From Deltaproteobacteria bacterium (GTDB lineage Bacteria > Desulfobacterota > Deferrimicrobia > Deferrimicrobiales > Deferrimicrobiaceae), in the NCBI GenBank assembly GCA_016234845.1, contig JACRNP010000003.1:1-37219 (forward strand): DNA of 37,219 nt, given 5' to 3'. Position numbers and translations under genes: made by a program. How positions within the stretch are numbered: position 1 is the stretch's first letter; every line of letters starts with the position of its first letter. Below are positions 18,915-37,219 of this stretch, piece after piece. The notes beneath the pieces were generated by a model. It made no database searches, was not told the DNA's origin, and saw only the letters and a list, made by a program, of their open reading frames with translations.

Positions 18915-18975
18915 GCGGGCGGTTCGCGCAGTTACGCCGGCACCACAGTTCCCAGATACGCCCAAGGAGATGAAT

Positions 18976-20490
18976 ATGCGTCTCCCGCATCGCGGTTGGT
19001 GCATCCCGGTCGTCTGTTCCACGCTCGCCCTGTTCCTTTCCGTCCCCGCCCTCTCCGATCCGTTCCTGGACATCACGGTCCCCTCCGGGATCGCCCTGAA
19101 CGGGAGAAACAAGGGAGTCGCAATAGCGGACGTGGACGGGGACGGCTACCTCGACATGTTCATATCCAACAAGGGGGGGCCGAGCCACCTCTACCTCAAC
19201 AACGGCAACGGGACGTACCGCGACGTCACGGAAGAGGCGGGGCTCGACGAGACCGGATACGCCATGGGCTCGACGTTCGGCGACGTGAACAACGACGGCA
19301 AGCCGGACCTCTACGTCGCGAAGGGCGGGCGGTACGAGATCGAGTCGAACCGGCTCTATCTGAACGCGGGCACTCCCGGGCGTCCGAAGTTCATCGACGT
19401 GACGGAGTCCGCCGGGGTGGGGATCAAGACCTTCACCTACGGCGCCACCATGTTCGACTACGACAAGGACGGCCGGCTCGACATCTACTGCTCCAACTAC
19501 GGCGTCGGGCAGCGCAACGTCCTGTTCCGGAACGCGACCGCCGGCCCGAGGCCGGAGGATGTGAAGTTCGTCGAGGCGACGGACGAGGCGGGCGTCGGAT
19601 CGAACACCTGGGCGTGGAGCTCGGTGGCGTTCGACTACGACGGCGACGGATGGGACGACGTCTACGTCTCCAACGGCCAGTACCCCGGCATCGGGAAGAA
19701 CGTTCTCTACAGGAACCTGGGGAACGGGAAGTTCAAGGATGTCACCGACGAGGCGGGCGTCCCCAACGACGCGTGGACCCTCGGCACCGGAGTGGGCGAC
19801 ATCAATAACTCCGGTTTCCTGAGCCTGTACGTGTCGAACTACGTGGGCGGGAACAAGCTCTACCTGAACCTCGGAAACGGCAGGTTCAAGGACATCACGA
19901 AGTCGTCCGGCACCGACCACAACGGGTGGGGGAAGGGGACCGGCTTCGCCGACACCGACCACGACGGGTTCCAGGACATCTACGAGGGTGACTGCAAATT
20001 CTCGAACCAGTTCTACCACAACAACGGAAACCTCACGTTCACCGACATCGTGGAGAAGTACCCCTCCATGAAGCTCGAGACGATCCGGACCAAGGGGGTC
20101 GCCTTCTTCGACCAGGACAACGACGGCGACATGGACCTGCTCGTCGCCAACTGGGAGGTGGGTCCGCGAGTCTACCGGAACGACCAGAACGACGGAAGCT
20201 GGATCAAGGTGAAGGCGGTGGGAACGACCTGGAACGACTCCTCCCGGAAATTCCGGACCAGCCGGGATGCCGTGGGCGCCAAGATCCGGTTGTACCGGGA
20301 CGGCAAGATGATCGCGTTCCGCCAGGTGCTGACCTCCAACGGGTTCTGCTCCTGTCCGCCGCTCGAGGTCCACTTCGGAGCCGATGCCCGGTACCGGTAC
20401 GACATCGAGGTCGACTTCCCGAGCGGGATCAAGGTGGTCCGCAAGAACGTGTCCGCGGGGGCGGCGTACACCATCCCGGAAGCGGAGTAG
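18976..20490 (+). CDS. Secreted CRTAC1-like protein: VCBS/FG-GAP repeats plus ASPIC/UnbV domain
   Basis: 504 residues. AAGGAG at 18964-18969 abuts ATG 18970 but sits six bases before ATG 18976, which is therefore preferred. After a signal peptide (CIPVVCSTLALFLSVPALS) come seven Ca2+-type loops: DVDGDGYLD, DVNNDGKPD, DYDKDGRLD, DYDGDGWDD, DINNSGFLS (degenerate), DTDHDGFQD and DQDNDGDMD, each with nearby FxDVT and LYLN motifs of beta-propeller blades. The C-terminus (VGAKIRLY, LTSNGFCSCPPLEVHFGA, VDFPSGIKVVRKNV) is the ASPIC/UnbV domain. These proteins are extracellular or outer-surface, calcium-bound, and presumably adhesive or scaffolding; the precise role is unknown. It ends at an intrinsic terminator. 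Confidence 0.93.
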   Translation: MRLPHRGWCIPVVCSTLALFLSVPALSDPFLDITVPSGIALNGRNKGVAIADVDGDGYLDMFISNKGGPSHLYLNNGNGTYRDVTEEAGLDETGYAMGSTFGDVNNDGKPDLYVAKGGRYEIESNRLYLNAGTPGRPKFIDVTESAGVGIKTFTYGATMFDYDKDGRLDIYCSNYGVGQRNVLFRNATAGPRPEDVKFVEATDEAGVGSNTWAWSSVAFDYDGDGWDDVYVSNGQYPGIGKNVLYRNLGNGKFKDVTDEAGVPNDAWTLGTGVGDINNSGFLSLYVSNYVGGNKLYLNLGNGRFKDITKSSGTDHNGWGKGTGFADTDHDGFQDIYEGDCKFSNQFYHNNGNLTFTDIVEKYPSMKLETIRTKGVAFFDQDNDGDMDLLVANWEVGPRVYRNDQNDGSWIKVKAVGTTWNDSSRKFRTSRDAVGAKIRLYRDGKMIAFRQVLTSNGFCSCPPLEVHFGADARYRYDIEVDFPSGIKVVRKNVSAGAAYTIPEAE

Positions 20491-20514
20491 TCCGCTTCCG
20501 ATCGCTCTTCGACG

Positions 20515-20550
20515 CCCCGCCGCGCGGTCCGGAGTGCGGCGGGGTTTTTT
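20515..20550 (+). terminator. Intrinsic terminator after the VCBS gene
   Basis: CCCCGCCGC (20515-20523) pairs perfectly with GCGGCGGGG (20536-20544), followed directly by six Ts (20545-20550). The 9-bp all-GC stem with T-run is a textbook Rho-independent terminator. It lies only 40 bp before the start of the next gene. Confidence 0.9.
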
Positions 20551-20589
20551 CTTTCCGCGCCCGGGGGGCGCATCCCAGCAGGAGTGACG

Positions 20590-22005: not shown

Positions 22006-22967
22006 TGCATCGCAGAGCGTTCTTCCTGGCCTTCGCCTTTCTGATGTTCGGATGCGCTTCCGCCCCCCCGGCGGAACGGGGTGCGGAATCCCCGGGTTCG
22101 ATCCACACGGTCTTCCCGGGGACCCCGCCCGGACCCGCGTTGCTGCGCGCGATGGAGGAGGCGAAGACGGGGGGACCGGATAAGGTCCGTGCCCTGCTGC
22201 CGTTCTTCGACACGGAAGACAACGAGCGCCTCGTTCGATTTGTCGTGACGCTCAAGGAGAAGGCCGTGCCGCCGCTGATCGCGTCGCTCGACGACCCGTC
22301 CCCGAGGATCGTCGAGGTCGCGGCCGGGTTGCTGGGGGAACTCCGCGCGAAAGAGGCGGTGCCCCGTCTGACGGAGTTTCTCCAAAGCGATCGCCCGCTC
22401 CGGTACGTGGCGGCATGGTCGCTCGGCGAAATCAAGTCTCCGGAGTCGATCCCCGTCCTGGTGCGCGCGTTGAGCGATACCAACGAGAACGTCGCAAAAG
22501 CGGCGACCCGCGCTCTCATCAACCTGGGCAGGAAGTCCACGCCGGCGATCGTCGCGGCGCTTCCGGTCTCGTCGGGCAGGCCGAGAAAGGCGATGCTTCG
22601 GGCGCTGGAGGACATCGAGGACACCCGGGCGGAGGGAGTCGTTCTGGATGTCCTAGAGAACGAGAAGGACCCGGTCGTGCAGGCCGCCGCCGCCCGGGCG
22701 CTTTCGAAGTGCGGCACGGCGAAGGCGTTCGCACCCCTCGAGCGGTGGCTTCTGTCGGGGGATGTCGGCGTCCGCGTCGAGTGCGCCTGGTCGCTCGGGA
22801 TCCTGATCGCGAAACCGGCGGAAGGGGCGCTCCGGAAGACGCTGGAACACCCCGATCCGAACGTGCGCGAATGGTCGGCCCGCGCGCTCGAGAACATCAC
22901 CGGGGAGCGCGTCATGTACCGCAGCGCGGGCGGGAAGATGGCGCTTCCGTATAATCTTTACCGTTGA
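22002..22967 (+). CDS. HEAT-repeat lipoprotein
   Basis: 321 residues, ATG 22002 overlapping the preceding TGA (ATG 22005 also possible). The N-terminus RRAFFLAFAFLMFGC ends in a variant lipobox with Cys 18 or so, suggesting attachment to a membrane. Residues about 75-310 are alpha-helical HEAT/PBS-lyase-type repeats: KAVPPLIASLDDPSPRIVEVAAGLLGEL, EAVPRLTEFLQSDRPLRYVAAWSLGEI, ESIPVLVRALSDTNENVAKAATRALINL, and two or three more. Such solenoids mediate protein-protein contacts, so it may be the scaffold on which other products of the operon assemble. The sequence ends with YNLYR and overlaps the TTG of the permease gene. Confidence 0.9.
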   Translation: MMHRRAFFLAFAFLMFGCASAPPAERGAESPGSIHTVFPGTPPGPALLRAMEEAKTGGPDKVRALLPFFDTEDNERLVRFVVTLKEKAVPPLIASLDDPSPRIVEVAAGLLGELRAKEAVPRLTEFLQSDRPLRYVAAWSLGEIKSPESIPVLVRALSDTNENVAKAATRALINLGRKSTPAIVAALPVSSGRPRKAMLRALEDIEDTRAEGVVLDVLENEKDPVVQAAAARALSKCGTAKAFAPLERWLLSGDVGVRVECAWSLGILIAKPAEGALRKTLEHPDPNVREWSARALENITGERVMYRSAGGKMALPYNLYR

Positions 22968-23938
22968 CCTCCCTGGCGGCGGACGCGAAGGTAGTCTTCT
23001 CCCTGTTCCTCGAGCAGTCGAGGGACCTGTGGCCGTTCTATCTCGGCGGGGTGTTCTTCGCGTCCTTCATCAAGACGTTCAAGTGGGACCGGCGCGTGCG
23101 GGCCTCGCTCGTCCGGTGCGACCGCGCCGCCATTTTCGTGGCGGTCGGGGCGGGACTCATCTCCCCGCTCTGCTCCTGCGGAATCCTGCCGGTGGTGATC
23201 GCCCTCTCGGCCGCGGGTGTTCCTCTCCCCCCCGTGCTCGCGCTGCTCATCACTTCTCCGCTCATGAGTCCGGACGCGTTCCTGATCACCGTCGGACAGC
23301 TCGGGTGGACGTGGGCGCTCTGGAAGCTCGCGGCGGCGGCGCTGATCGGGCTGGCGGGAGGTTTCGGCGCGTTGTGGCTCGTCCGGAAGGGCGCTCTGGA
23401 CGGGAGCGGTTTCCAGGCGGAAAAAATGTACGATTCGCCGGGCAACGTCCGTCCCGGGTTCGAGGACATCGTCAACGCGGGCTGCTTCGCCCACGCGGGG
23501 GCGGAGGGGGGCATCGTCGATCGCGCCGGCCGTCTCCGTTTCTTCGGCGACCGATTCCGGGACATGGCGATCCTCGTCGGGAAGTTTCTTGTTCCCGCGC
23601 TCCTGCTGCAGGCCGTCATGACGTACTACCTGCCCGTGAACGTCGTCGAGCCGCTGCTCGGAAGGGAGTCGGCGCTCTCCGTGCTCTTCGCGGCGCTCAT
23701 CGCGGTCCCCATGCCTCTTCCCCAGGTGGCGGCACCGGCGCTGATCAAGTCGCTGCTCGCGGCGGGGATGAGTCCCGGGGCGGGAATGGCGATCCTGATC
23801 GGGGGGCCGGTGACGAGCATCCCGGCCCTGTCGGCACTTGCGGGCGTCTACGACCGGAGGGCGTTCGCGCTGTACGTGGGGTTGGGGGTCGCCGCTGCGG
23901 TCGCGGCGGGTGTCCTGTTCCAGGCGTGGTACGGGTGA
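22964..23938 (+). CDS. Permease of the DUF318/ArsP-SO_0444 superfamily
   Basis: 324 residues, TTG start at 22964 in a TTGA overlap with the HEAT gene. About eight membrane segments. The diagnostic C70-S-C-G73 followed by ILPVVIALSAAGVPLPPVLALLITSPLMSPDAFLI is repeated in weaker form in the C-terminal half (AVPMPLPQVAAPALIKSLLAAGMSPGAGMAILIGGPVTSIPAL). Relatives include the organoarsenical exporter ArsP and SO_0444-type putative Cu/Zn efflux proteins. The cysteine pair could bind a soft metal. A cytoplasmic loop (about 145-195) with Cys174 and His177 lies between halves. Location inside an operon of secreted proteins suggests it exports something that they use or bind; this is inference. Confidence 0.85.
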   Translation: MTSLAADAKVVFSLFLEQSRDLWPFYLGGVFFASFIKTFKWDRRVRASLVRCDRAAIFVAVGAGLISPLCSCGILPVVIALSAAGVPLPPVLALLITSPLMSPDAFLITVGQLGWTWALWKLAAAALIGLAGGFGALWLVRKGALDGSGFQAEKMYDSPGNVRPGFEDIVNAGCFAHAGAEGGIVDRAGRLRFFGDRFRDMAILVGKFLVPALLLQAVMTYYLPVNVVEPLLGRESALSVLFAALIAVPMPLPQVAAPALIKSLLAAGMSPGAGMAILIGGPVTSIPALSALAGVYDRRAFALYVGLGVAAAVAAGVLFQAWYG

Positions 23939-23982
23939 TGCGGGTCCGTGGAATCTCCATCGACGACAGGAGGGTGTTCACC

Positions 23983-24780: not shown

Positions 24781-25913
24781 GATCGTCGGCCGATTCCGCC
24801 CGGCGGCGAATCCTCCTTCCGGTCGCGGGATTCCTGATCCTTGCGCTCGGGTCGTGTTCGCACGCGCAGCGGAAGGGTGGTCCGGATGCCGGGGGAGCCG
24901 GTGCGCCATCGGTCCGGACGGTCGTGCACGTCCGTGTGACCTGGCGCGAGGATCCGCTTCCGGATGCCCGGGTCGGGCTTCTCCGTTCGATCGGTGGAAC
25001 CGCCGTCGCGATCGCACGTACGGACGCGGAGGGGCGCGCGGCGTTCGACCTGTCCCCGGGCCGGTATTTCCTCGTCGCCGAGTGGCGAAGGGACTCCGAT
25101 TACGGAAGACCGATCTCCGCCGGGGACCGGTACGCGTATTTCGGCGGGAACCCCGTGTTCGTCGGCGGGGCGGGGGAGTCCCGGGAGATCTTCGTCGGGA
25201 CCGAGGAGTTCGCCGCACCTCCCGGCCAGGACGGGGAACCGGCCGGAGGGACGGGAGTCGCCGGAAGGGTGACCTCCGGGGGAGCCCCGGTGGAGGGCGC
25301 GCACGTGTTCGCCTATCTCCGGACCGACTCCGCCTTCCGGGACCTCGGGTTCGCGGCCTCCGCGCCCACCGCGTCGGACGGCTCCTTCGTCATGGAACTG
25401 CCCCCCGGGGAGTATCATGTCCTCGTCCGGAAACGTTCCGGCGGCGGTGTCGCCGGCCCGATGCGGAAGGGCGACCTGTTCGGCTACTATCCCGCCAACC
25501 CCGTATCCGTCCGTTCCGGCGGGTTCGCCAGGGTCTCGATTCCCGCCACCCTGCTGAAACTCCGCAACGTTCCGACGTACTCGCGGGATGCGCGGGCGAC
25601 GGCGTCCGTCGAGGGGAGGATCCTCGGGGCCGACGGAAAGCCGCGGGCGGGCGTGTACGCCGCGCTCTACGACAACCCCGACCTTCTCAATCGCCCGGTG
25701 CTCCTGTCCGACGTGACCGGGGCGGACGGACGGTACCGTCTTCCCGTGCCCGTTCCGGGGAAATATTTCCTCGGGGCGAGGAGCGGATACGGCGGATCGC
25801 CGTCCCCCGGGGACTATTACGGAAGGTTCGAGGGGAACGCGGACCACTCCGTTACGCTTCGGGAGGGCGACCGTCTCACCGGGGTGGACATCACCGTGAA
25901 CGAGGTCTGGTGA
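24777..25913 (+). CDS. Lipoprotein with three beta-sandwich modules (family member 2)
   Basis: 378 residues from GTG 24777 (GTGA overlap). Lipobox LGSC, Cys27. Three modules: about 40-130 (WREDPLPDARVGLLR...GDRYAYFGGNPVFV), 155-250 (GGAPVEGAHVFAYLR...MELPPGEYHVLVRKR...GDLFGYYPANPVSV) and 270-378 (LGADGKPRAGVYAALYDN...VPGKYFLGARSGYGGSP...GDYYGRFEGNADHSV...GVDITVNEVW). The first two end with a G-x-NPV motif, the last with DHSV. That order recurs in members 3 to 5. It is followed one base later by the spermidine-synthase-like gene. Confidence 0.85.
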   Translation: MRSSADSARRRILLPVAGFLILALGSCSHAQRKGGPDAGGAGAPSVRTVVHVRVTWREDPLPDARVGLLRSIGGTAVAIARTDAEGRAAFDLSPGRYFLVAEWRRDSDYGRPISAGDRYAYFGGNPVFVGGAGESREIFVGTEEFAAPPGQDGEPAGGTGVAGRVTSGGAPVEGAHVFAYLRTDSAFRDLGFAASAPTASDGSFVMELPPGEYHVLVRKRSGGGVAGPMRKGDLFGYYPANPVSVRSGGFARVSIPATLLKLRNVPTYSRDARATASVEGRILGADGKPRAGVYAALYDNPDLLNRPVLLSDVTGADGRYRLPVPVPGKYFLGARSGYGGSPSPGDYYGRFEGNADHSVTLREGDRLTGVDITVNEVW

Positions 25914-25914
25914 C

Positions 25915-28308
25915 GTGGCGGTCTTTCTCGCGGCGGCGGGGGTTCTCGCGTTCGAAGTCCTCCTGACCCGGGTTTTCTCCGTGGTGGCCTGGTACCACTT
26001 CGCGTCGATGGCGATCGCCGTAGCCATGTTCGGCCTCTCGGCGGGCGGGCTTCTCCCCTATCTGCTGCGGAAGTCCGGCAGGCTCCCCGCCGGATTTTCC
26101 GGGATCCCGCCGTCGCTGGGCGCAGCTCTTGCCGGGATGTCCGCGCTCGTGACCGCGGCGCCGTACATCGTCCTTCTCCTGTTCCGGCGATACCCCCTCT
26201 GGGCCGGCCGCCTCCTGTCCGTGTTCCACCAGCCGTACTACGAGCCGTTCCGGGCGGCGGCGCAGGCCGCTCCCGCATCGGACGCCGCCCAGATCGGGAT
26301 CCTGCTGCTCCTGTTCTCCCTGCCGTTCGTGGGCGCAGGGGCCATCTTCGCCCTTGCGTTCGCGGGGAAGGGAAACGAGGGGGAAACGTATCTCCACGTG
26401 ATGGGCGGCTCCGCCGCGGGCGTTGTCGCGTACCTGCTGGCCATGCGCGCGGGCTCCGGCCCGGCCGCGTTTCCCTTCGTCGCGGCGCTGTTCGCCCTGT
26501 CCGCGGCCGCGTTCTCCCTTCGCCGCGGGAGCGGACGCCGCGCCGCACCGGTGATCGCTTTCGCGGGGGCCGCGGCGCTCCTCGCGCTCGGGTTCCTGGA
26601 GGCGCGATACGGGTTCGCGGAGATCCGGTTCGCCCGGGGGCGGTTCGAACCCGGCATGCTGTGGACCCGTTGGGACGCCGTCTCGCGGGTCGCCGCGTAT
26701 CCGGTGTCCGGGGAGGAGTCGTCGAAGGCGTGGGGGGTAAGCCCCGCGTACACGGGGCCGGTGCCGGAGCAGGTCGGGATGGTCGTGGACGACACCGGAT
26801 ACACGGCCCTCTTCGGGGTGGGGAAGGAGCCGGATACGCTGGACGCCTTCCGGTGGAACGTGGCGTCCGCCGCGTACCACGTCCGGCCCGGGGCGTCCGC
26901 GCTGATCATCGGCCCTGGAGGAGGGAAGGATATCCTGTGCGCGTTGTCGTCGTCGGCCCGCTCGGTGACCGCCGTGGAGATGAATCCGCTCGTCGTGCAG
27001 GCGGCCGGCGAGGCGTTCGGGGAATTCACCGGGAATCCGTACGCGATGAAAAGCGTCCGGACGGTGATCGCCGAGGGGAGGAATTTCCTCGCGTCCGACC
27101 GGGAGAGGTATGACGTCCTTCAGATGACGCAGGTCTTCGGCCGCGTCCCCCCTTCCGCCGGCGCGTTCACGATGACCGAGGACCACCTCCACACGGAGGA
27201 GGCGTTCCGGTCGTACCTCGCCCATCTCCCCGACGACGGGATCCTGACGATCACCCGGTTCATCCACGAACGCCGCGTCTGGCGGCTCCTTTCCCTGTCC
27301 CGCGGCGCCCTCGCCCGTCTCGGTTCCGCCGATCCGTCGCGCCACGTGGCGGCGGTACGCGACAGGGGATTGATCAACATCATGGTCCGGCGGACGCCGT
27401 GGACGGACAAGGACCTGGCCGCGCTCCGCGGGTTCTCGGAATCGATGGGATTCCCGATCCTGTTCGCGCCCGATCGGCCGGCGGCCGGGCTTCCCGGCAG
27501 GATTCTTTCGGGGGAGGAGGGGCGCGAGGCGGGCGCGTTCGACTACTCCGCCCCTTCCGACGACCGTCCCTTCTACTACTACACGTTGCGGCCGGGATCC
27601 TTCCTGTCGCCCGCCGGCATGAAGTCGGGGGAGTTCGACGACAGGGCGGTGTCGATGCTGCGCGGATTCCTTCTCTCCGCCGGGATCCTCTGCGCGATAT
27701 TCCTCGTCGCGCCCGGGGCGCTGCTTTCACGGGGGGGTGCCGCCCGGCCCGGGATCGCGGCCCCGGCATACATGTTCCTCGTGGGGCTCGCGTTCATCGT
27801 CTGGGAGATCGTGATGATCAAGCGTCTCGCGCTCCTGTTCGGGGCGCCGGTGCTCTCCCTCGCGGTGGGGCTGCTGTTGATCCTGCTGTTTTCCGGAGCG
27901 GGAGGATTCCTGTCCGAGCGCGCCGTCCCGGGAGACCGGACGCGGTGGCTCCCCGGGGCGGCGATCGCGGCGACCGCGTACCTTTTCTTCTGCGGGCCGG
28001 AACTCGTCCGTTTCGCCGGGGCCGGGCTCCCCGCTCGCGTCGCGGTGGCTGCGGCGTACGTCCTTCCCCCGTCGATCCTGATGGGGATATTCTTCCCGGC
28101 CGGCCTGCGCAGGTACTCCTCCCCGGATTCGGGAACGACCCCGTTCCTCTTCGCCGCCAACGGCGCCGCTTCGGTCCTCGGCGCCGCGCTGACGCAGGCG
28201 CTCACGCTGAACATCGGGTACGGAGCGACCACCCTGGCGGGCGGGGTCGCGTATGCGCTGGGCGCGGCGGCGCTCGCCACCCCCGGAAAGGGGGAGGGGC
28301 TGGAATGA
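25915..28308 (+). CDS. Integral membrane protein with spermidine-synthase-like domain
   Basis: 797 residues, GTG 25915. About six to eight membrane segments occupy residues 1-230 (LAAAGVLAFEVLLTRVFSVVAWYH first). A class I methyltransferase/aminopropyltransferase fold follows at about 285-470: SALIIGPGGGKDILCAL (nucleotide loop), AVEMNPLVV (ribose-binding acidic residue Glu355), and AEGRNFLASDRERYDVLQM. A further five or six segments follow from about 580 to 790. This three-part plan occurs in bacterial 'spermine/spermidine synthase domain' membrane proteins of unknown chemistry. The typical catalytic Asp motif of soluble SpeE (D-x-x-D-P) is not seen; the position reads QMTQVFG. It may use SAM or decarboxylated SAM to modify something at the membrane. 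Confidence 0.85.
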   Translation: MAVFLAAAGVLAFEVLLTRVFSVVAWYHFASMAIAVAMFGLSAGGLLPYLLRKSGRLPAGFSGIPPSLGAALAGMSALVTAAPYIVLLLFRRYPLWAGRLLSVFHQPYYEPFRAAAQAAPASDAAQIGILLLLFSLPFVGAGAIFALAFAGKGNEGETYLHVMGGSAAGVVAYLLAMRAGSGPAAFPFVAALFALSAAAFSLRRGSGRRAAPVIAFAGAAALLALGFLEARYGFAEIRFARGRFEPGMLWTRWDAVSRVAAYPVSGEESSKAWGVSPAYTGPVPEQVGMVVDDTGYTALFGVGKEPDTLDAFRWNVASAAYHVRPGASALIIGPGGGKDILCALSSSARSVTAVEMNPLVVQAAGEAFGEFTGNPYAMKSVRTVIAEGRNFLASDRERYDVLQMTQVFGRVPPSAGAFTMTEDHLHTEEAFRSYLAHLPDDGILTITRFIHERRVWRLLSLSRGALARLGSADPSRHVAAVRDRGLINIMVRRTPWTDKDLAALRGFSESMGFPILFAPDRPAAGLPGRILSGEEGREAGAFDYSAPSDDRPFYYYTLRPGSFLSPAGMKSGEFDDRAVSMLRGFLLSAGILCAIFLVAPGALLSRGGAARPGIAAPAYMFLVGLAFIVWEIVMIKRLALLFGAPVLSLAVGLLLILLFSGAGGFLSERAVPGDRTRWLPGAAIAATAYLFFCGPELVRFAGAGLPARVAVAAAYVLPPSILMGIFFPAGLRRYSSPDSGTTPFLFAANGAASVLGAALTQALTLNIGYGATTLAGGVAYALGAAALATPGKGEGLE

Positions 28309-29396
28309 CGCCGCGTTCCGGCCTCTTCCGAACGATCGCATCGCGGATTGCGGCGGTCTCGGTCCTCCTGCTGGCCGTCGCCTGCTCCCCCCGGCAAGGA
28401 ACGGTGGAGGGTGTGGCGTCGATCGACGACGCGCCGGCGGCGGGTGCGGAGATCCAGGCGTTCGTGAAGGCTGGCGCGGAGCGGTCGGGGACGCCGTTTG
28501 CAACGGGCGCCGCCCGGGAGGACGGATTCTTCTCGCTCCCGCTCCCGCCGGGAAGCTACCACCTCGTGGCGCGCAGGACCGTCCGCGCGGAGGGGCGGGA
28601 CCGGACGTACAAGGCGGAATACTCCGGGAACCCGGTTCGCGTGTCGGGCGGCGAAACCGTGAAGGGAATTTCCTTCGCTCTCGTCGAAATGTCGTCCGGC
28701 GGATTCGTCCCGCGCCGGGGGACCGGCGTGACCGGCGCCGTAGTGATCGACGGGAAGCCGGCGAAGGGGGTGTACGTGTACGCCTACCCCGACAACGTCG
28801 GCACGGTCCGGGGCCCCTCGTACGCGGCCTTCGCGCGCGCGGGCGAGGATGGACGGTTCCGCATCGTCCTCCGGGAGGGAGCATTCCGCATCGTCGCAAG
28901 GGAGAAGGGCGGAGAGAACGAGACCGGCGCCATGTCTTCGTCCGGGAAGACGGGAGGGGACGAGGGGATCCCGGTCCGTCTCGAACCCGGATCCACCCGC
29001 GACCTGGGGAGGATCGCACTGCGCTCCCCGGACGAGGGGAAGCGGAGGCGGCGCGCCGCCGGAGGCGGGCAGGCGGCGCCGGCGGCGGAGATCCGCGGCG
29101 CCGCGGTCCGGGAGGACGGTTCCCCCGCTCCCGGGGTATACGTGATGGCGTACGCGGACCACCGGATGATCGGACGGCCATTCGCCATCTCGGGAAGGAC
29201 GGGGACCGACGGAGCGTTTATCCTGAAATTTCCGAAACCGGGGAAGTACTTCCTCGGCGCCAGGGGAGAGTACGGCGGTCCCGTCTCTCCCGGGGAACCG
29301 GTCGGGATGTTCGATGGATCGCCGGACCACGGGGTCCTGGTGCGCGACGGGGAACGGCTCGAGGGGATCCGGATCCGGGTGGCGGAGAAGTGGTGA
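28305..29396 (+). CDS. Lipoprotein with three beta-sandwich modules (family member 3)
   Basis: 363 residues from ATG 28305 (ATGA overlap). Lipobox LAVAC with Cys27. Modules: about 32-130 (GVASIDDAPAAGAEIQAFV...[12 protein letters not shown]...YSGNPVRV), 142-235 (GVTGAVVIDGKPAKGVYVYAYPDN...) and 262-363 ([67 protein letters not shown]). Module 2 has lost the NPV ending and continues into a basic stretch (KRRRRAAGGGQA) before module 3. The C-terminal signature is intact. Its stop overlaps the GTG start of the next beta-helix gene. Confidence 0.85.
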   Translation: MTPRSGLFRTIASRIAAVSVLLLAVACSPRQGTVEGVASIDDAPAAGAEIQAFVKAGAERSGTPFATGAAREDGFFSLPLPPGSYHLVARRTVRAEGRDRTYKAEYSGNPVRVSGGETVKGISFALVEMSSGGFVPRRGTGVTGAVVIDGKPAKGVYVYAYPDNVGTVRGPSYAAFARAGEDGRFRIVLREGAFRIVAREKGGENETGAMSSSGKTGGDEGIPVRLEPGSTRDLGRIALRSPDEGKRRRRAAGGGQAAPAAEIRGAAVREDGSPAPGVYVMAYADHRMIGRPFAISGRTGTDGAFILKFPKPGKYFLGARGEYGGPVSPGEPVGMFDGSPDHGVLVRDGERLEGIRIRVAEKW

Positions 29397-30607
29397 GGGA
29401 GGCGAACATCGCCCCGCTCCCCCTGGCGCTCGCCGTGGCGGTGCTGCTCTCGATGGCCGCCGCGTTCCCGGGCCACGGGAAGGAGATCGCGGGGAATCGG
29501 ACGTATTCGGGAGATCTGGTCGTCCCCAGGGGGGAGACGTGGAAGGTGCTCCCGGGCGCGGAGATCCGGTTCCGTGGAGGGAGGTGGATCGTTCGCGGGA
29601 CCCTGATCGTCGAGGGGACGGAGGCGAACCCAGTCCGCATCGTCGGAGACGACGCGTTCGACGGGCTCGACGTGCGCGGAGAGGCCGACGCCAGGTTCCG
29701 GCACGCCGTTCTCTCGGGCGGCAGGCGAGGGGCGCAGCTGACCGGCGCGGCGGCCGGATTCCGGGAGGTCCGCTTCGAGGGGAACGGGGTCGGGCTCGAC
29801 GTCGGGCAGTACGCCAGGGTCCGGGTCGACCGGTGCGTATTCGAGGGGAACGCACGGGTCGGGGTGCTGGTCAAGCGCGGCGGCGCCGCGGAGATCGCAG
29901 GGAGCCGCTTCTCGGGGGCGGGGAAAGCGGGCGTATACGCGTACGGCGCCGACAACGTGTCGCTTCGCGACTGCCGGTTCGAGCGAAACGGAACGGGTCT
30001 CCTCGCGGGGATGGCGGGCGCGCGCGTCCGGGTCGCGAAGTCGGTCTTCCACGCGAACGGCGTCGGGATCCTCGCGGAGAAGACGGCGGCGCCCGAGGTG
30101 TCGGGATCCGAGGTCACGGGGAACGGCACGGGATTCCTGTTCACCCGAAGGGCGGAAGGGACCGTCTCCGGATGCCGCATCGAGGGGAACGGAACCGGCG
30201 CGCGGGTGGAGTTCTCCTCCTACCCCGTGTTCCGGGGGAACGTCTTCCGGGGGAACCGGGATGCGGCGGTGCATCTGCGGCACCAGTCGTCGGAGTGGGA
30301 AGGCGAGGCGACGGAAGGGGACCGGGACGGCGCGTCGGGTCCGGGGGCGCCGTTCGGGCCCGGCGGCGGGTCGCGCGGAGATTTCCGGCCGCGGGATGGC
30401 GCCGGGGGGACGGCATCGAAGGGAGGTCCTCCCGGGAAGAGGGGGGGGCTGACCGGTACGGTGGATTTCCGCGGGAACGACTGGGGTGAGTCGCAGCCCC
30501 AGGTGGACGCGGGTGGAAGCGTGACCGGGATCCGCGACGGGCGCGTGGAGCCGTACTTCGAATACAGGGGGAGGAGGTACCGGATGGACACGGTGCTGCT
30601 GAAATGA
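29393..30607 (+). CDS. Secreted parallel beta-helix protein (second)
   Basis: 404 residues from GTG 29393 (GTGA overlap). A signal peptide ([21 protein letters not shown]) precedes the helix cap [38 protein letters not shown]. About ten coils follow, e.g. [26 protein letters not shown] and [33 protein letters not shown] Gly/Arg/Asp-rich linker (about 300-355) then leads to a C-terminal strand with [11 protein letters not shown]. The architecture matches the protein at 20590: cap, coils, charged linker, GN-x-WG tail. The two are probably paralogs. Role unknown, likely surface or periplasmic scaffold. Confidence 0.88.
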
Positions 30608-31665
30608 GGCGCTTCGCGCCGCTCCTCCTCTGCCTGTTGTGCCTCGCGGAAGGTTCCAGCGCCGCCGATTTCACCGGCGTGCGGGGGCGGGTCGCCCTCA
30701 AGGGCGAGGTGATCCCGGGGGTCGTCGTGTTCGCCTTCGGCGATTTCGGAAAGGGGATTGCCGGCCACGCGGCGGCGCGGTCGGCGGGGACGAACGCGGA
30801 AGGGATCTACGAGCTGTCCCTTCCGCCCGGGAGCTACCACCTGGTCGCCGCGAAAACCGCGTCCGCGTCGCTTGCCGGGGTGAAGGAAGGGGACCTCTTC
30901 TGCTTCTACGGGGGGAACCCGGTCCGGGTCGAACAGGATCGGGCAACCAACGTGGGGTTCAACCTGGTCCGGGTCGGGAGCGACCCGCCATCCGACATGC
31001 CGTACGGTGTGGAGGGTACGGTGTTCGACGAGAACGGGGTTCCGCTCGCCGGCGCGACCGTCTACTTCTACGAATCCCCTGCGGGCGGATTCAAGGGAAT
31101 CCCGGGGTTCTTCGCGCGGACCGGGCAGGACGGCACCTTCCGGGCGCGACTGAAGAAAGGGACATTCTTCGCCGTGGCGCGCAAGCGCGAATCGGGGGAC
31201 CTGTTCGGCCCGACGCAGGTGGGAGACCGCTTCGCCTACTACGTCCGGAACCCGATCACGCTTCCGGAGGGCGGGGGCGCGAAAGGGATCCGGCTGGACG
31301 CGGTCCGCCGCCTGTCGATGCTGGAGACGTTCGAGGGAATTCCGGCGTCGTCCCGGGGGATCCCGCTCCGTGTCCGTGTCGTAGATCCGGCCGGGAAACC
31401 GGTTGCCGGCGTCCGCGTTCTCGCGTACCCCAACCGGGAGATGTTCGGCCACCCGGCGTACGTGTCCGGCAAGAGCGGAGCGGACGGGTTGGCGGAATTC
31501 ACCGTCGCCGAAGAAGGGACGTTCCACCTCCTCGCGCGGGAAAACCTGGGCGGTCCGGCCGAAGGGGAGTTGTACGGCAAATACGCGGGCACGAAGGACC
31601 ACTCCGTCGAGGTGACGCGCGAAGGAGCGCCGGGGGCGTTCGAAATCGTGGTGGAGCGGAAATGA
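30604..31665 (+). CDS. Secreted protein with three beta-sandwich modules (family member 4)
   Basis: 353 residues, ATG 30604 (ATGA overlap). The N-terminal signal [19 protein letters not shown] fits cleavage by signal peptidase I and has no lipobox, so unlike its paralogs this one is probably soluble in the periplasm or secreted. Modules: about 24-120 ([44 protein letters not shown]), 133-235 ([44 protein letters not shown]) and 253-353 ([50 protein letters not shown]). All three modules preserve the family endings, making it the cleanest example. Confidence 0.86.
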
Positions 31666-32750
31666 GATCGAGCCTGTCCGCCCGCGCCCGGATTCTGGCG
31701 GTATCCGCGTCGTGCCTGCTGGTCGTTTCCTGCGCCGGCGCGCCGCCGGCGAGGGAGGCCCCGGTGCTTTCCGGGAGGGTCACTTTCCGCGGCGCGCCGG
31801 TACCCGGGGCCGTGGTGACGCTTCTCCGGACGTACGACCCGGCCGGCAAATCCGCGAGTCCATCGGTACGATCGTCGGGTGACGGAGGATTCCGGGCGGA
31901 AGTGCGGCCGGGGAGCTATTACGTGGTGGCGGAAGGCGCGTACGAGGGCGCCCCGGTGTTCGCCTTCTCCGGGCAGAACCCGGTGCGCCTCGAGTCCGGG
32001 TCGCGGTGGCTCGGGATGAAGGCGGTCCCGGCGGAAATTCCGGCGATGCTGCCCGGGAAGCCGGGGCGAGGCGCCGTGGCCGCCGGAGAGCTTGTCTTTC
32101 GCGGGGCGCCCGTGGAAAACGCATACGTGTACGTCTATTCCTCCCCGGACTCGCTCTTCAAGGGGATGGGAATGGCGATGAGCGCCCCCACGGGCCCGGG
32201 TGGGACGTTCGAGATCGAGAACCTTCCCGAGTCCACGTACTATCTCGTGGCGAGGAGACGCGGGGAAGGGGGGATGACCGGTCCGCTGGAGAAGGGGGAC
32301 CTGTACGGGTTCTACCCGGGGAACCCTGTATATTTGAAGGATGCGACGGTGACCCGCCTGCGGCTGGAGCTGGTGGAAAAGGAGAAGGAGCTGGCCTACT
32401 CCGAGGTGACGTCGGGGACGGAGACCGTGCTGCGGGGGAAGGTGGTCGACCGGACCGGCAGGCCGCAGGCGGGAGTGTACGCGTTCGTGTACGACGACCG
32501 CGTCTTCGGGCACCAGCGCCCGTACGGCCATTCCGGGCGGACCGGCCCGGACGGGTCGTTCGCCATCTACCTGGACCGGCCCGGAACGTTCTACCTGGGC
32601 GCGCGGGAGCGGTTCGGCGACTCGCCCCGGCCCGGCGAGCGGTTCGGGTTCTACGACGGCACGCCGGACCACGCGGTGTCGGCCGTCGCGGGGATCGCCC
32701 GGGAAGGGTTGACGGTCGTGGTCGAGCCGATCCTTCCGGAGGGGAAGTGA
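31662..32750 (+). CDS. Lipoprotein with three beta-sandwich modules (family member 5)
   Basis: 362 residues, ATG 31662 (ATGA overlap). Lipobox VVSC with Cys24. Modules: about 35-125 ([41 protein letters not shown]), 140-240 ([52 protein letters not shown]) and 262-355 ([50 protein letters not shown]). Module 2 is strikingly similar to module 2 of member 2. Stop overlaps the GTG of a beta-helix lipoprotein. Confidence 0.86.
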
Positions 32751-33640
32751 CACCGCGCCGCGCCGCCCGCATCCTTCCCATCCTCCTCGCCTGCGGAATC
32801 GCCGCGTGCGCCGGGGCGGGGAAGATGCCGGGGGGGAGGCTCCCGGCCGACGGGATCGCCCTGCCGATCCGCGGGCTCGCGGGCGACGAGACGTGGAGCG
32901 GCGAAGTCCGCATCCGGGGGTCGGTCGTCGTCCCCCGCGGGGTCACGCTGACGATCGCGCCGGGCACCGTCGTCCGCTTCGAGAGGATCGACGTGGATGG
33001 AGACGGAATCGGCGATTCGGAGCTGTACGTCGAGGGGAACCTCCTGGCCGAGGGGACGCCGGGGAGTCCGATCCGGTTCACGTCGGCGGAGAGGAATCCG
33101 TCCCCGCGCGACTGGAAGTACCTGTTCGTCAACCTGAGCCGCAGGACGGTCCTCTCCCGGTGCGTGTCCGAGTACGCGTTCTCGGGAATCCAGATCCACT
33201 TCTCCCGCGCCACCGTCACCCGCTCCGTTTTCCGCCGGTGCGTGGACGGGTTCCGCTTCTCGACCGCGGAAGGGGTCTTCTCCAGGAACCGGATGACGGA
33301 GAACGTGTACGGGGTCCGTTACGAGGAGCGCAACTCCACCGCGACCCTGTCGCGCAACGTCATCACGGGGAACAAGGTCGGGATCTTCTGCGTGATGGAG
33401 TCGACGGGGAAGGTGGCGATCCGGGAGAACCGGATCCACGGGAACGCCGACTACGACTTCAAGCTGGGAAACCGCCAGCGGGCGGACATCCCGGCGGCGG
33501 GGAACTGGTGGGGTACGACCGACCCCGCCGCGATCCGCGCGCGGATCTTCGACCGGGGGGTGGAACCCGACCTCGGAGTAGTCCTCTTCGAGCCGTTCCT
33601 CGCGGCGCCGCCGCCGGACGACGGCGGGTACGGGACGTGA
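32747..33640 (+). CDS. Beta-helix lipoprotein (third)
   Basis: 297 residues from GTG 32747 (GTGA overlap). Lipobox IAAC at about residue 21. The cap is ETWSGEVRIRGSVVVPRGVTLTIAPGTVVRFERIDVDGDGIGDSELYVEGNLLAEG, including a DVDGDGIGD loop that looks Ca2+-binding. Coils such as FRRCVDGFRFSTAEGVFSRNRMTEN and LSRNVITGNKVGIFCVMESTG follow. The tail GNWWGTTDPAAIRARIFDRG...LGVVLFEPFL is typical of NosD-like beta-helix proteins. It differs from the two larger proteins in being membrane-anchored and shorter. Confidence 0.88.
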   Translation: MTPRRAARILPILLACGIAACAGAGKMPGGRLPADGIALPIRGLAGDETWSGEVRIRGSVVVPRGVTLTIAPGTVVRFERIDVDGDGIGDSELYVEGNLLAEGTPGSPIRFTSAERNPSPRDWKYLFVNLSRRTVLSRCVSEYAFSGIQIHFSRATVTRSVFRRCVDGFRFSTAEGVFSRNRMTENVYGVRYEERNSTATLSRNVITGNKVGIFCVMESTGKVAIRENRIHGNADYDFKLGNRQRADIPAAGNWWGTTDPAAIRARIFDRGVEPDLGVVLFEPFLAAPPPDDGGYGT

Positions 33641-34092
33641 CGGTCCGGCGGCTCGTCGTGTTCTCCGTGTTCTGGCTCGGACTGGTCCTGGCCGTGCCCC
33701 GGACGCCGGAGGCGCACCCCAACGCGCGGTTCCTGCGCGGGGACATCACCGTGTCGACGTCGTGGGAGGGAGTGATCCGCCTCACGGGTACCGTGGTGAT
33801 CCGGGAGGGCGTCACGGTGACGGTGGATCCGGGCACGGAGATTCTCGTCCAGCCGGGGGAGGGAACGGACATCGAGGTCCGCGGGAGGCTGCTGGTGCGC
33901 GGCATTCCGGAAAAACCGGTCCTGTTCGACACGGCGGGAGGGTGCGCGGCCGGTTCCTGGGGCGGGATCCGTTTCCGTCCGGGGAGCACGGGAACGTTCG
34001 AGAACGTGCGGATCCGCTGCTCCGCGGCGGGAGTGGCCGGGGAAACATCCGGCGTGACGAAGAAGGGCGTTACGCTCGAGGCGGGGCGGTGA
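33637..34092 (+). CDS. Short beta-helix cap protein (fourth)
   Basis: 151 residues from GTG 33637 (GTGA overlap). A signal peptide (RRLVVFSVFWLGLVLAVPRTPEAH) is followed by TSWEGVIRLTGTVVIREGVTVTVDPGTEILV, IEVRGRLLVRGIPEKPVLFD and GSWGGIRFRPGSTGTFENVRIRC. This is the N-terminal cap and first two coils of a beta-helix protein, then it stops. It has no GN-x-WG tail. It may be a truncated gene or an independent small protein that caps or nucleates the larger helices. No disrupted coding remnant is visible downstream, which favours a genuine short protein. Confidence 0.78.
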   Translation: MTVRRLVVFSVFWLGLVLAVPRTPEAHPNARFLRGDITVSTSWEGVIRLTGTVVIREGVTVTVDPGTEILVQPGEGTDIEVRGRLLVRGIPEKPVLFDTAGGCAAGSWGGIRFRPGSTGTFENVRIRCSAAGVAGETSGVTKKGVTLEAGR

Positions 34093-34106
34093 GGTGAAGT
34101 GAGAAC

Positions 34107-35075
34107 ATGCTGATCCTGTCCCCCGCCGACAAGGCGTCGGAGGTCCCCGCGCTCGTATCCGCCGGCGCGGAGGAGTTGTACGCCGGTTACGTCCCGCCGT
34201 ACTGGTCCGATGCGTTCGGACCGGTCGTCTCCTGCAACCGGCGCAGCTACGAGGAGGCGAACGCCGGCTCCCTAGATGAGCTGTTCGCCCTCGTCCACCA
34301 GGCGGCGGTGCTCGACGTCCCCGTCCACGTAGCCCTGAACGCTTCGCCGATCCCGGACGACATGATCCCGCCGCTGGTCGGGACGGCGGGGGAGCTTGCC
34401 GCGGGAGGGGTTCGTGGAGTGATCGTCTCGGACCTCGCGTTGCTGCTCTCCTTGCGGGATGCGAAGTTCCGGCGGCTGTCGCTGCACGCCAGCACGCTGT
34501 TTTCGGCCTTCAACGGGATGACGGTCGCGTTTCTCCGCAGGGCGGGGGCGGACCGGGTGATCCTGGCCCGGGAGCTTTCCACGGCCGATATCGCCGCCAT
34601 GGCGCCGCTCGCGGGGGAGGCGCGCCTCGAAGTCATCGGATTCCGCGGGCGGTGCCCCAACATCGAGGGGTTCTGCACCCACCTGCACGACGATCCGGGC
34701 CGGAGCTGGCCGTGCGAGCTGTCGTACGAAAAGGAGTGGCGCGGGGAGGGGGAAGCGGCGCCCGCGGGCGTCCTGGACGCCATCGCACGGAACGAGGGGG
34801 TCGACCGGTTCCACTCGTGCGGGCTGTGCGCCGTCCCGCTCCTCGAGCGCGCCGGGGTCCACTCCCTGAAGATCGTCGGCAGAGGCGCGGAGACGTCGCG
34901 CAAGGTCGACGCGGTCCGCGCCGTCGCCGCGATGCGGGAGTGGGGGAGGGCGAACATCCCCGACGCGTCGGCGTGCGCCCGCCGGGGGAAGGATCTTTAC
35001 CGGGAAATCTTCGGCCGCCCGTGCCGCCCGGAAAACTGCTACTTCCCCGAGTTCCGCCCGGGAGAGGTGCGATGA
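34107..35075 (+). CDS. U32 family protein, UbiU-like
   Basis: 322 residues, ATG 34107 after GAGGTGA, 14 bp behind the last envelope gene. The TIM-barrel start MLILSPADKASEVPALVSAGAEELYAGY and LHASTLFSAFN are typical of peptidase U32 family proteins. Cysteines C183-x6-C190-x12-C203 plus C238/C241 resemble the four [4Fe-4S] ligands of E. coli UbiU (first two six residues apart). More cysteines (C290, C306, C311) follow. UbiU-type proteins are not peptidases but take part in oxygen-independent hydroxylation, with prephenate as oxygen source in ubiquinone synthesis. Whether this one hydroxylates, and what, is unknown. Coupled to the next gene (ATGA). Confidence 0.82.
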   Translation: MLILSPADKASEVPALVSAGAEELYAGYVPPYWSDAFGPVVSCNRRSYEEANAGSLDELFALVHQAAVLDVPVHVALNASPIPDDMIPPLVGTAGELAAGGVRGVIVSDLALLLSLRDAKFRRLSLHASTLFSAFNGMTVAFLRRAGADRVILARELSTADIAAMAPLAGEARLEVIGFRGRCPNIEGFCTHLHDDPGRSWPCELSYEKEWRGEGEAAPAGVLDAIARNEGVDRFHSCGLCAVPLLERAGVHSLKIVGRGAETSRKVDAVRAVAAMREWGRANIPDASACARRGKDLYREIFGRPCRPENCYFPEFRPGEVR

Positions 35076-35836
35076 GAGAATATCGGTATCTCGGCCCGGA
35101 CGGGGAGGGGATCGCGGAATTGCCGGTCGGGGCCGGGGGGGCGATGGGGAGCGAATATTGCGTCCACCTGCTGCCGACGGCGGCGCGGATGGCGGAGGCG
35201 GCCTCCGAGGCGTCGGCGAGGAGCGCCCCTCTGCTGCTCCTCACCCCGTACTTCCGGGACGCGGAACTGAAGCGGACTCTTCCGCTCTTCCGCGCGATCC
35301 CGCCCGGGGCGGACGTCGACGTCGCTGTGAACGACTGGGGGCTCCTCCAGACGCTCCACGGACTGTTCCCGCGGATGCGGCTGTCGGTCGGCCGGCTGCT
35401 CTCCGGGCAGAAGCGGTGCCCGCGGATCGGCTCATCCCCACGGCTCACGGAGGAGGGGAGGAAGTGGCACGGCGAGGGGATCTTCTCCTCGCCCCGCGCG
35501 CGGGATTTTCTCGAGGGGGAGATGGGCGTCACGGGGTACCACCTCGACGCGCTCCCCTGGACCCGGGGAGTCCGTCCGGCGCCGGAGGATGCCGAGTTCT
35601 TCGTCCACCAACCGTACTCGATCGTGACGGTGACGGACGCCTGCCCGTGGATCGGCGGGATGTCGTCATCGCTGCTCCCGTCCTGCCCACGGCCGTGCAG
35701 GGAAGGTTGCGTGGTCCTGAAGGAGCCTTCGATGGGCGAGGGGCTGCTCCAGCGGGGAAAGGCGCGGTTCGCGGCGGCCTCGGAACCGGTTTCCGCAGGC
35801 CGGATGACCCGTGTCCGCTACGGGAACCTGCCGTAG
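35072..35836 (+). CDS. U32-related iron-sulfur protein, UbiV-like partner
   Basis: 254 residues, ATG 35072 overlapping the UbiU-like stop. It has a shorter barrel-like fold with VDVAVNDWGLLQTLHGLFP, matching the VVND-x-G strand motif of U32 proteins. Cysteines C30, C191, C205, C209 and C213 are placed much like the UbiV cluster ligands (one early Cys, then a later group ending C-x3-C). Extra C116 and the CPRPCREGC segment exceed the usual four. Together with the previous gene it forms a UbiU/UbiV-like heterodimer candidate. No UbiT (SCP2) or ubiquinone gene is nearby, so the substrate may lie in the envelope operon. Confidence 0.72.
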   Translation: MREYRYLGPDGEGIAELPVGAGGAMGSEYCVHLLPTAARMAEAASEASARSAPLLLLTPYFRDAELKRTLPLFRAIPPGADVDVAVNDWGLLQTLHGLFPRMRLSVGRLLSGQKRCPRIGSSPRLTEEGRKWHGEGIFSSPRARDFLEGEMGVTGYHLDALPWTRGVRPAPEDAEFFVHQPYSIVTVTDACPWIGGMSSSLLPSCPRPCREGCVVLKEPSMGEGLLQRGKARFAAASEPVSAGRMTRVRYGNLP

Positions 35837-35846
35837 CATACCGCGC

Positions 35847-35865
35847 GGGCCGGAATTTACGGCCC
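35847..35865 (+). terminator. Hairpin after the UbiV-like gene, weak terminator candidate
   Basis: GGGCCG (35847-35852) pairs with CGGCCC (35860-35865) around a seven-base loop. It lies 11 bp past the stop of the last operon gene. A C-run, not a T-run, follows, so any termination would need Rho or be partial. Confidence 0.35.
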
Positions 35866-35871
35866 CCCCGT

Positions 35872-35901
35872 GTGGCAATCACGGAATATCCTGCGTAATA
35901 T
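35872..35901 (+). promoter_or_regulatory. Candidate promoter of the AAA-protein gene
   Basis: GTGGCA (35872-35877) and TAATAT (35896-35901) are 18 bp apart, each matching sigma70 consensus at four of six positions. The surrounding sequence (35876-35910) is much more AT-rich than the flanking genes. The implied start near 35908 lies just upstream of the ribosome binding site GGAG at 35921. Confidence 0.4.
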
Positions 35902-35930
35902 TAGTGGATACACTTTCGCCGGAGCGTCCA

Positions 35931-36809
35931 TTGCACCGAAGGCTGGAAAACGTGTTCTACGAAGTCCGCGCGCCGCGCCTGGCGTGGAACGACATCGGAG
36001 GCCTTGCGGGCCCCAAGGCGAAGATGAAGGAGATGGTCTGCCTTCCCATCACCCGCGCGAAGGAGCTGCGGTCGATGGGCGTCGATTTCCCCGCCGGGGT
36101 GATGCTGTGGGGGCCCCTGGGATTGGGGATCACGATGCTCGCGGAGGCGGCGGCGAAGGAGGCGGGGGCGACCTTCGTCTACGTTTCGGGCCAGGAAATG
36201 CTGGGAAAGGTCGACCGGATGGAGGAGGCGTTCGGGATGGCGGTCCGCGAGGCGCCGTCCGTCTTCTTCATCTCCGACATCGACTGGCTGTGTCCCCGCG
36301 CCGGCGCATCCTACGACTGGGACGCCGGTAACCTCCGGGGGAAGCCGCCGACCTTCGCCGACATCGCCTTCACGGAGAAGTTCCTGGCCCTGCTCGACGG
36401 CCTGCTTTCCGCGCCGGAGGTGCGCCTCGTCGGCTCGTGCTACCGGATCGACGTGGTGGACCAGGCGGCGATCAAGGAGAAGAAGCGGTTCAACCGGAAG
36501 ATCTTCGTCGCCCCGCCGACGGCGGAAGAGCGGCGGGAGATCCTCGCCATCTACGCCGGGAGGATGCCGCTTTCGCAGGGCGTGGATCTTGCCCGGGTCG
36601 CGGCGAAGGCGGAGGGGTGCACCGGATGGGACATCGAGAACCTGTGCCGGAAGGCGGCGATCGTGGCGGTGGAGTCGGGGAGCGACCGGGTGGACGAGCG
36701 GCACTTCGATGCGGCGCTCGCCTCGATCACGCCGTGGCTCACGCCCGACATGGCCGAGGGGTATCTGCGGATCCACCGCGAGGATTGCCCGCACCATTAC
36801 GCTTTCTGA
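35931..36809 (+). CDS. CDC48-derived AAA protein with degenerate ATPase motifs
   Basis: 292 residues if TTG 35931 (GGAG six bases upstream) is the start; GTG 35904 and GTG 35952 are alternatives. The order of motifs is that of a single CDC48/p97-type AAA domain: LAWNDIGGLAGPKAKMKE, Walker A, SGQEML pore region, Walker B, sensor 1, RFNR, and the lid EGCTGWDIENLCRKAAIVAVE. Walker A reads GPLGLGIT, with Ile67 where Lys must be. Walker B reads FFISDID, with Ser115 for Asp and Asp116 for Glu. Sensor 1 Asn is Tyr171, and the pore-loop aromatic region is shortened. Arg-finger residues R186/R189 remain. It probably cannot hydrolyse ATP and may be a regulatory or scaffolding subunit. Confidence 0.85.
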   Translation: MHRRLENVFYEVRAPRLAWNDIGGLAGPKAKMKEMVCLPITRAKELRSMGVDFPAGVMLWGPLGLGITMLAEAAAKEAGATFVYVSGQEMLGKVDRMEEAFGMAVREAPSVFFISDIDWLCPRAGASYDWDAGNLRGKPPTFADIAFTEKFLALLDGLLSAPEVRLVGSCYRIDVVDQAAIKEKKRFNRKIFVAPPTAEERREILAIYAGRMPLSQGVDLARVAAKAEGCTGWDIENLCRKAAIVAVESGSDRVDERHFDAALASITPWLTPDMAEGYLRIHREDCPHHYAF

Positions 36810-36829: not shown

Positions 36830-37219
36830 TTGAAACGATCCATCGCCCCCATCGCCTTCGCCGCCGCCCTGGCGGCCGTCGCGTTCCTCCTCCATCCCTT
36901 GTCGGCCGCCGCCTGCGTCGGACGCACGATCCTGGTGGGATACTTCGACGCTCCCGACCAGGCGATGGTGGCCAACATCCTGGCGGTCTTCATCGACGAG
37001 CGGACCGGGACCACCGTGAAACTGTCCCGCTTCGCCAGCCGGGAGGATGCGTTCGAGGCGGTCCGGCAGGACAAGGTCAGCCTCTACACGGACTACTCTT
37101 CCGTGCTCCTCTCGAAGTTCGCCGGGGAGAAACCCGGACCGGAGGACGGGAAGAACATCGCCCGCCTGAAGGAAGTGCTGAACCGGAAATACAACGTGGT
37201 CTGGCTGGAGCCGTTCGGC
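36830..37219 (+). CDS. Glycine betaine/choline ABC transporter substrate-binding protein (OpuAC/ProX type), partial
   Basis: 130 codons are present, open to the window end. AGGAG (36819-36823) directly abuts ATG 36824 but lies six bases before TTG 36830, so TTG (giving MKRSIAPIAF) is preferred. A signal peptide with AlaAlaAlaCys (residues about 27-29; possibly a lipobox SAAAC) leads into the type 2 periplasmic binding domain: ILVGYFDAPDQAMVANILAVFIDERTG, VSLYTDYSS and LNRKYNVVWLEPFG, the last being a strong OpuAC/OpuBC signature. It binds quaternary amines for osmoprotection in known members, though divergence here leaves the ligand open. Unrelated in function to the upstream operon. Confidence 0.85.
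   Translation, partial: MKRSIAPIAFAAALAAVAFLLHPLSAAACVGRTILVGYFDAPDQAMVANILAVFIDERTGTTVKLSRFASREDAFEAVRQDKVSLYTDYSSVLLSKFAGEKPGPEDGKNIARLKEVLNRKYNVVWLEPFG

Follow-up and report, generated by a model that had tools for sequence, protein, structure and literature searches.

A gene of the window (the whole stretch of 37,219 nucleotides analysed here) encodes a single-domain pseudo-AAA protein from a family that is both old and conserved, and in which a CDC48/VAT D2 fold has lost the residues of the ATP site together with pore loop 1, and has gained an insert and a C-terminal tail. The protein is a classical AAA by sequence, fold and lid, yet it lacks the Walker A lysine, the Walker B Asp-Glu pair and the sensor-1 asparagine. 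On sequence grounds it is a pseudo-ATPase, which agrees with the preliminary description of this DNA. Pseudo-AAA domains as such are already known, as exemplified by LULL1 and its partner TorsinA. An old bacterial pseudo-AAA family that stands alone, with no CDC48 to partner it, would demonstrate retention of the AAA fold for work other than ATP hydrolysis. The gene also marks a so far uncharacterised envelope redox cluster, which occurs in several families of the phylum.

The pseudo-AAA protein and its relation to CDC48

The coding part of the gene comprises positions 35931–36806 plus the stop, exactly as previously delineated, and its frame is intact (Table 1). The frame remains open upstream to a GTG at 35811, and orthologues begin at the position of the window's TTG at 35931, where they carry M, V or L. 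The product consists of a single AAA domain with its lid and no other domain, as seen from the matches to PF00004 (60.3 bits against a cut-off of 21.2, 3.6e-16) and AAA_lid_3 (46.4 bits, 2.8e-12). At four loci of relatives (L011, L081, L082 and L078), the open frame of the gene extends to 494–497 aa, which may reflect an extended N-terminus.

Table 1 Features of the pseudo-AAA gene, its motifs and its neighbours in the window.
Feature	Position	Strand	Basis and remarks
FG-GAP / UnbV-like protein	18970..20490	+	Common to Desulfuromonadales clusters; Pfam on L064 homologue
Permease, SaoE / SO_0444-like	22964..23938	+	NF040736 1.3e-25, NF033936 1.1e-23, both below cut-offs; SPLCSCG motif
Membrane protein with spermidine-synthase-like domain	25915..28308	+	PRK00811 2e-4, weak; conserved in cluster
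Peptidase U32 / UbiU-like protein	34107..35075	+	PF01136 2.2e-22; UbiU model 2e-12, below cut-off
U32-paired protein	35072..35836	+	Conserved Cys residues; unmatched in Pfam and NCBIfam
Pseudo-AAA gene	35931..36809	+	292 aa, TTG start; open frame, PF00004 and AAA_lid_3 matches, orthologues
Degenerate Walker A, GPLGLGIT (Lys67 to Ile; Pro to Leu)	36111..36134	+	Ile in 56 and Met in 2 of 58 covering sequences; Lys in 33/33 controls
Region of pore loop 1, residues 91–94	36201..36212	+	5 residues deleted relative to VAT/FtsH; alignments
Degenerate Walker B, VFFISDID (Asp115-Glu116 to Ser-Asp)	36261..36284	+	S115 and D116 in 59/59; Asp-Glu in 33/33 controls
Family-specific insertion, about 11 residues, after Walker B (YxWxxGNxRGxPPTFAD region)	36309..36365	+	Without counterpart in VAT, p97 and FtsH
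Sensor-1 region, GSCYRID (Thr-Asn to Cys-Tyr; Asn171 to Tyr)	36432..36452	+	C170 and Y171 in 59/59; Thr-Asn in 33/33 controls
Remodelled Arg-finger loop, IKEKKRFNRK	36471..36500	+	Second Arg (R186) retained, first replaced by Lys, insertion of one residue; alignments
GWD in place of GAD (Trp233)	36624..36632	+	Trp invariant in family; Ala or Ser in 33 controls
C-terminal tail, DCPHHYAF, then stop at once	36783..36806	+	39/39 end exactly there; every residue but the Ala invariant
OpuAC-like periplasmic protein, cut by contig end	36824..37219	+	PF04069 8.3e-7; linked to pseudo-AAA in both lineages

Profile searches among solved structures identified archaeal VAT and p97 as the best matches, mainly through their D2 domain, and the nearest solved sequence is the D2 domain of archaeal VAT (5vc7; 34% identity over 266 residues, Z 26.9). 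An AlphaFold2 model built with 48 orthologues (pLDDT 93.3, pTM 0.90) confidently predicts a p97-D2-like fold. Searches with the model using Foldseek and VIA-align 2 placed p97/CDC48 at the top (p97 Z 28.9, rmsd 2.4 Å over 268 residues), and the matches also include the PAN-type structure 3whk (Z 27.6) and 8xku, the Ycf2-FtsHi complex. The CDC48-like origin proposed earlier is thereby upheld, with VAT and p97 D2 as the best solved relatives. The likeness extends to the fold, the lid with its C-terminal helix and the sequence itself, whereas the N domain, D1, the ATP-site residues and pore loop 1 are missing and the insert and tail are new.

The protein is nonetheless not a CDC48, p97 or VAT proper, as these have two tandem AAA domains plus an N domain instead of a single domain of 292 aa, and the curated CDC48 model TIGR01243 gives 150.9 bits against a cut-off of 802.65. 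A maximum-likelihood tree groups the pseudo-AAA sequences into a single long-stemmed clade (100/100) that is separate from FtsH and lies within neither the CDC48 D1 nor the CDC48 D2 clade; its point of attachment is tentative because long branches meet there. PAN and other proteasomal ATPases share the AAA fold and, as an idea, a functional C-terminal tail, but the pseudo-AAA has no nucleotide site and ends in Y-x-F-stop instead of the proteasomal HbYX. The anti-phage ATPase IetA/IteA was likewise rejected (NF042959 37.8 bits against 510; PADLOC IetA 39 bits, partial). Pfam, NCBIfam, PADLOC and PHROGs include no model for the family, their matches being to general AAA models or to families of unknown function. 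Literature searches, mostly of open-access papers, turned up no description of it under bacterial pseudo-AAA proteins, the gene cluster or the Sao system.

Loss of the ATP site and conservation of the family

Scanning one genome per species revealed 40 relatives at 50–83% identity, whose titles name mostly Deltaproteobacteria, Desulfuromonadales and relatives. Within the phylum, the gene is present in 23 of 395 genomes (about 6%), as a single copy in each, and in a smaller set searched at a looser threshold the match scores were either at least 427 bits or at most 164 bits, with nothing between. An alignment of 59 distinct orthologues from the same phylum, at 52–83% identity, was compared with 33 active CDC48, VAT and FtsH domains as controls. 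The Walker A lysine, Walker B Asp-Glu and sensor-1 asparagine are missing in every orthologue covering the site and intact in all the controls. The substitutions reported earlier for Walker A, Walker B and sensor 1 and the shortening of pore loop 1 are all borne out by these alignments; they are conserved in close homologues, none of which has an intact Walker lysine or Asp-Glu. As 59 distinct orthologues share the motif residues, these can be put down neither to chance nor to sequencing error.

Beyond these known substitutions, the alignments revealed a tryptophan in place of the GAD alanine, the 11-residue insert after Walker B, in which Y128, W130, R136 and PPTF are invariant, and a remodelled Arg-finger loop. 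It may be that Trp233 fills the nucleotide pocket. The Arg-finger region RFNR had been described as kept, which is correct for the second arginine of the RxGR pair (R186), invariant throughout the family, but not for the rest of the motif, where the first arginine is a lysine (K182), the glycine is replaced by Lys or Arg in nearly all members and one residue is inserted. Also kept are Thr68, the GxxGxG frame and an acid at the position of the Walker B glutamate. The C-terminus takes the family form DCPHHYxF-stop, and this fixed free end suggests a docking peptide. Invariant as well are Cys170 and, in the tail, Cys286-Pro-His-His.

The former nucleotide pocket, as a column set hand-picked from known motifs, is far more conserved than the rest of the protein (mean entropy 0.28 versus 1.03 bits, permutation p 5e-5), with 20 of its 34 columns invariant compared with 58 of 244 elsewhere. 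Such an altered and conserved pocket fits a filled, a structural or a repurposed pocket alike.

A decaying copy or a sequencing artefact would explain the lost motifs and nothing beyond them. Recent inactivation, a pseudogene or a sequencing error is ruled out by the occurrence of the gene in dozens of genomes, its intact frames and a dN/dS of 0.10–0.18 at a dS near 1 (window gene versus four close orthologues), and together with the invariant new residues this leaves the explanation a negligible probability. The earlier reading of the gene as under selection and not in decay is accordingly confirmed by the 59 orthologues, the dN/dS values and the fixed new residues.

Gene neighbourhood

The gene lies in a conserved neighbourhood, found in two arrangements. 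Its components are an ArsP_1 permease, an OpuAC-like protein, a DUF362 protein, a 4Fe-4S polyferredoxin, a NosD-like beta-helix protein and an FG-GAP protein, often accompanied by an FmdE-like protein. The Desulfuromonadales-type order begins with [107-aa protein] - pseudo-AAA - FmdE-like - ArsP_1 permease - [FG-GAP], continues with carboxypeptidase-regulatory-like - beta-helix, and is followed by either a spermidine-synthase-like membrane protein or OpuAC-like - DUF362 - 4Fe-4S polyferredoxin. At many loci, the pseudo-AAA gene either overlaps the FmdE gene or is separated from it by no more than about 15 bases, and the FmdE neighbours carry HGHxCPM, the permeases SPLCxCG. Yet FmdE cannot be a universal partner, since FmdE (PF02663) is lacking in four of the carriers examined (G000, G001, G010 and G024), the genome of the window among them.

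In the window lineage, the cluster gene kinds are reordered, with the U32/UbiU-like pair before the pseudo-AAA gene and the OpuAC-like gene directly after it, at a distance of 14 bases. The U32/UbiU-like gene overlaps its partner by 4 bases, and together (34107–35836) they possibly form a UbiU-UbiV-like pair. The permease of the window belongs to the ArsP_1 family through homology to the copy at L064. Positions 37098–37219 match the first 122 bases of another contig exactly (C12; L100:1-122); therefore, the OpuAC-like gene continues in that contig and the two could be joined. Further on, C12 encodes a ResB/beta-helix protein, a DUF362 match and another ArsP_1 permease.

Positions 18970–36809 of the window form a long co-directional run with FG-GAP, beta-helix/NosD-like, HEAT, permease, carboxypeptidase-regulatory-like, spermidine-synthase-like, U32 and OpuAC-like components, which recur across other families of the phylum; no published description of the run was found. 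Farther downstream, the same genome (L100:10021-13462) encodes a radical SAM/SPASM protein, together with what look from the sequence like an ECF-type sigma factor and an anti-sigma-like protein. Elsewhere, the polyferredoxin gene is found just upstream of the pseudo-AAA gene (L032), and the 107-aa protein upstream of it (L064:5569-5892), without Pfam or NCBIfam match, is conserved in many Desulfuromonadales-type loci. In G013, the OpuAC-like gene and its neighbours are present (L101:4303-5025) and no pseudo-AAA gene turned up; as the contig breaks off 50 bases before the OpuAC-like gene, this may be due to an assembly gap. Carriers of the cluster include the cultured Geothermobacter hydrogeniphilus HR-1 (L058).

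Candidate partners and possible function

The best-known dead AAA domains either form part of larger rings or activate an active partner. For example, the FtsHi proteins of the Ycf2-FtsHi motor are inactive subunits, that is, defective AAA relatives retained by selection. They belong to a known heteromeric ring, in contrast to the pseudo-AAA. The preliminary description had suggested that the protein might cap, inhibit or complete the ring of an active AAA encoded elsewhere, with a CDC48-like protein as the partner to look for. For CDC48 this is not borne out, as no CDC48-type protein is present in its own genome (95.8% complete) and, among the 24 genomes of the window's taxonomic family, seven carry the pseudo-AAA, eight a CDC48-like protein and one both; with a Fisher p of 0.35 there is therefore no association, and a CDC48 ring partner is unsupported.

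The fixed tail and the conserved neighbourhood point to a job other than a role in a CDC48 ring. Tentatively, and with somewhat less than even confidence, the protein is best explained from its context as an ATP-independent scaffold or adaptor, tied by its tail to a cluster for the assembly of envelope redox or metal proteins. It would bind no ATP and thread no substrate, and would act in the cytoplasm, possibly as a ring. Through the invariant tail DCPHHYxF-COOH it would dock to the product of another gene of the cluster, and the cluster would in turn assemble or provision a redox or metal-containing apparatus outside the cytoplasm. Against this scaffold reading stand the carriers in which FmdE is missing and the genome G002, where the only genes near the pseudo-AAA gene are a DUF362 gene, which directly follows it, and a TlpA-like gene. 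In addition, the protein might serve the ATP site of another AAA, as its invariant second Arg finger could indicate.

Such an Arg-finger donor or ring regulator would join an active AAA ring, most likely that of FtsH, and stimulate or block it. R186 is invariant though the protein has no working site of its own, and at a threshold of E 1e-3 its own genome yields no further classical AAA besides FtsH, although other AAA+ proteins are present. A precedent exists in the luminal domains of the TorsinA activators LAP1 and LULL1, which are AAA-like and without Walker motifs but have kept an Arg finger, donated by LULL1 to TorsinA (PMC4999309). These are, however, eukaryotic and ER-luminal with a known partner, and they resemble the pseudo-AAA in domain type and Arg finger, not by a sequence relation. 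The lysine at the first position of RxGR and the insertion in the loop speak against a donor, as does the distribution of FtsH, which occurs in most genomes searched (in G024 as a C-terminal piece, whereas none was seen in G025) while the pseudo-AAA is so much rarer. No ftsH gene was seen adjoining the pseudo-AAA gene, and with no association to CDC48 either, we consider a donor role rather unlikely, and somewhat more so than the binding of a ligand.

In the latter case, a metal, heme or a metabolite would be bound either at the Cys-Pro-His-His tail or in what was once the ATP pocket, and the protein would switch partners accordingly. The stronger conservation of the mutated pocket would fit such a sensor, as would the invariant cysteines, the Cys-Pro of the tail being possibly a heme motif, and the motifs of the FmdE neighbours and permeases. 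Yet the pocket may be conserved for structural reasons and W233 may simply fill it, making a sensor doubtful. It could also be speculated, with no greater confidence, that the ATP pocket of a CDC48-type domain was converted once, long ago, into a conserved pocket for another ligand, and that the protein, with its docking tail, now serves as a ring or adaptor, free of ATP, in an undescribed system of envelope metal or redox assembly. By far the least plausible of the functional readings is a non-canonical working ATPase, in which the nucleotide is bound without the lysine and Asp116 performs the chemistry. The retained Thr68, GxxGxG frame and Walker B acid would allow for it, but the lysine, the Mg-binding aspartate, the catalytic glutamate and the sensor-1 asparagine are all lost, and a tryptophan has taken the place of the GAD alanine.
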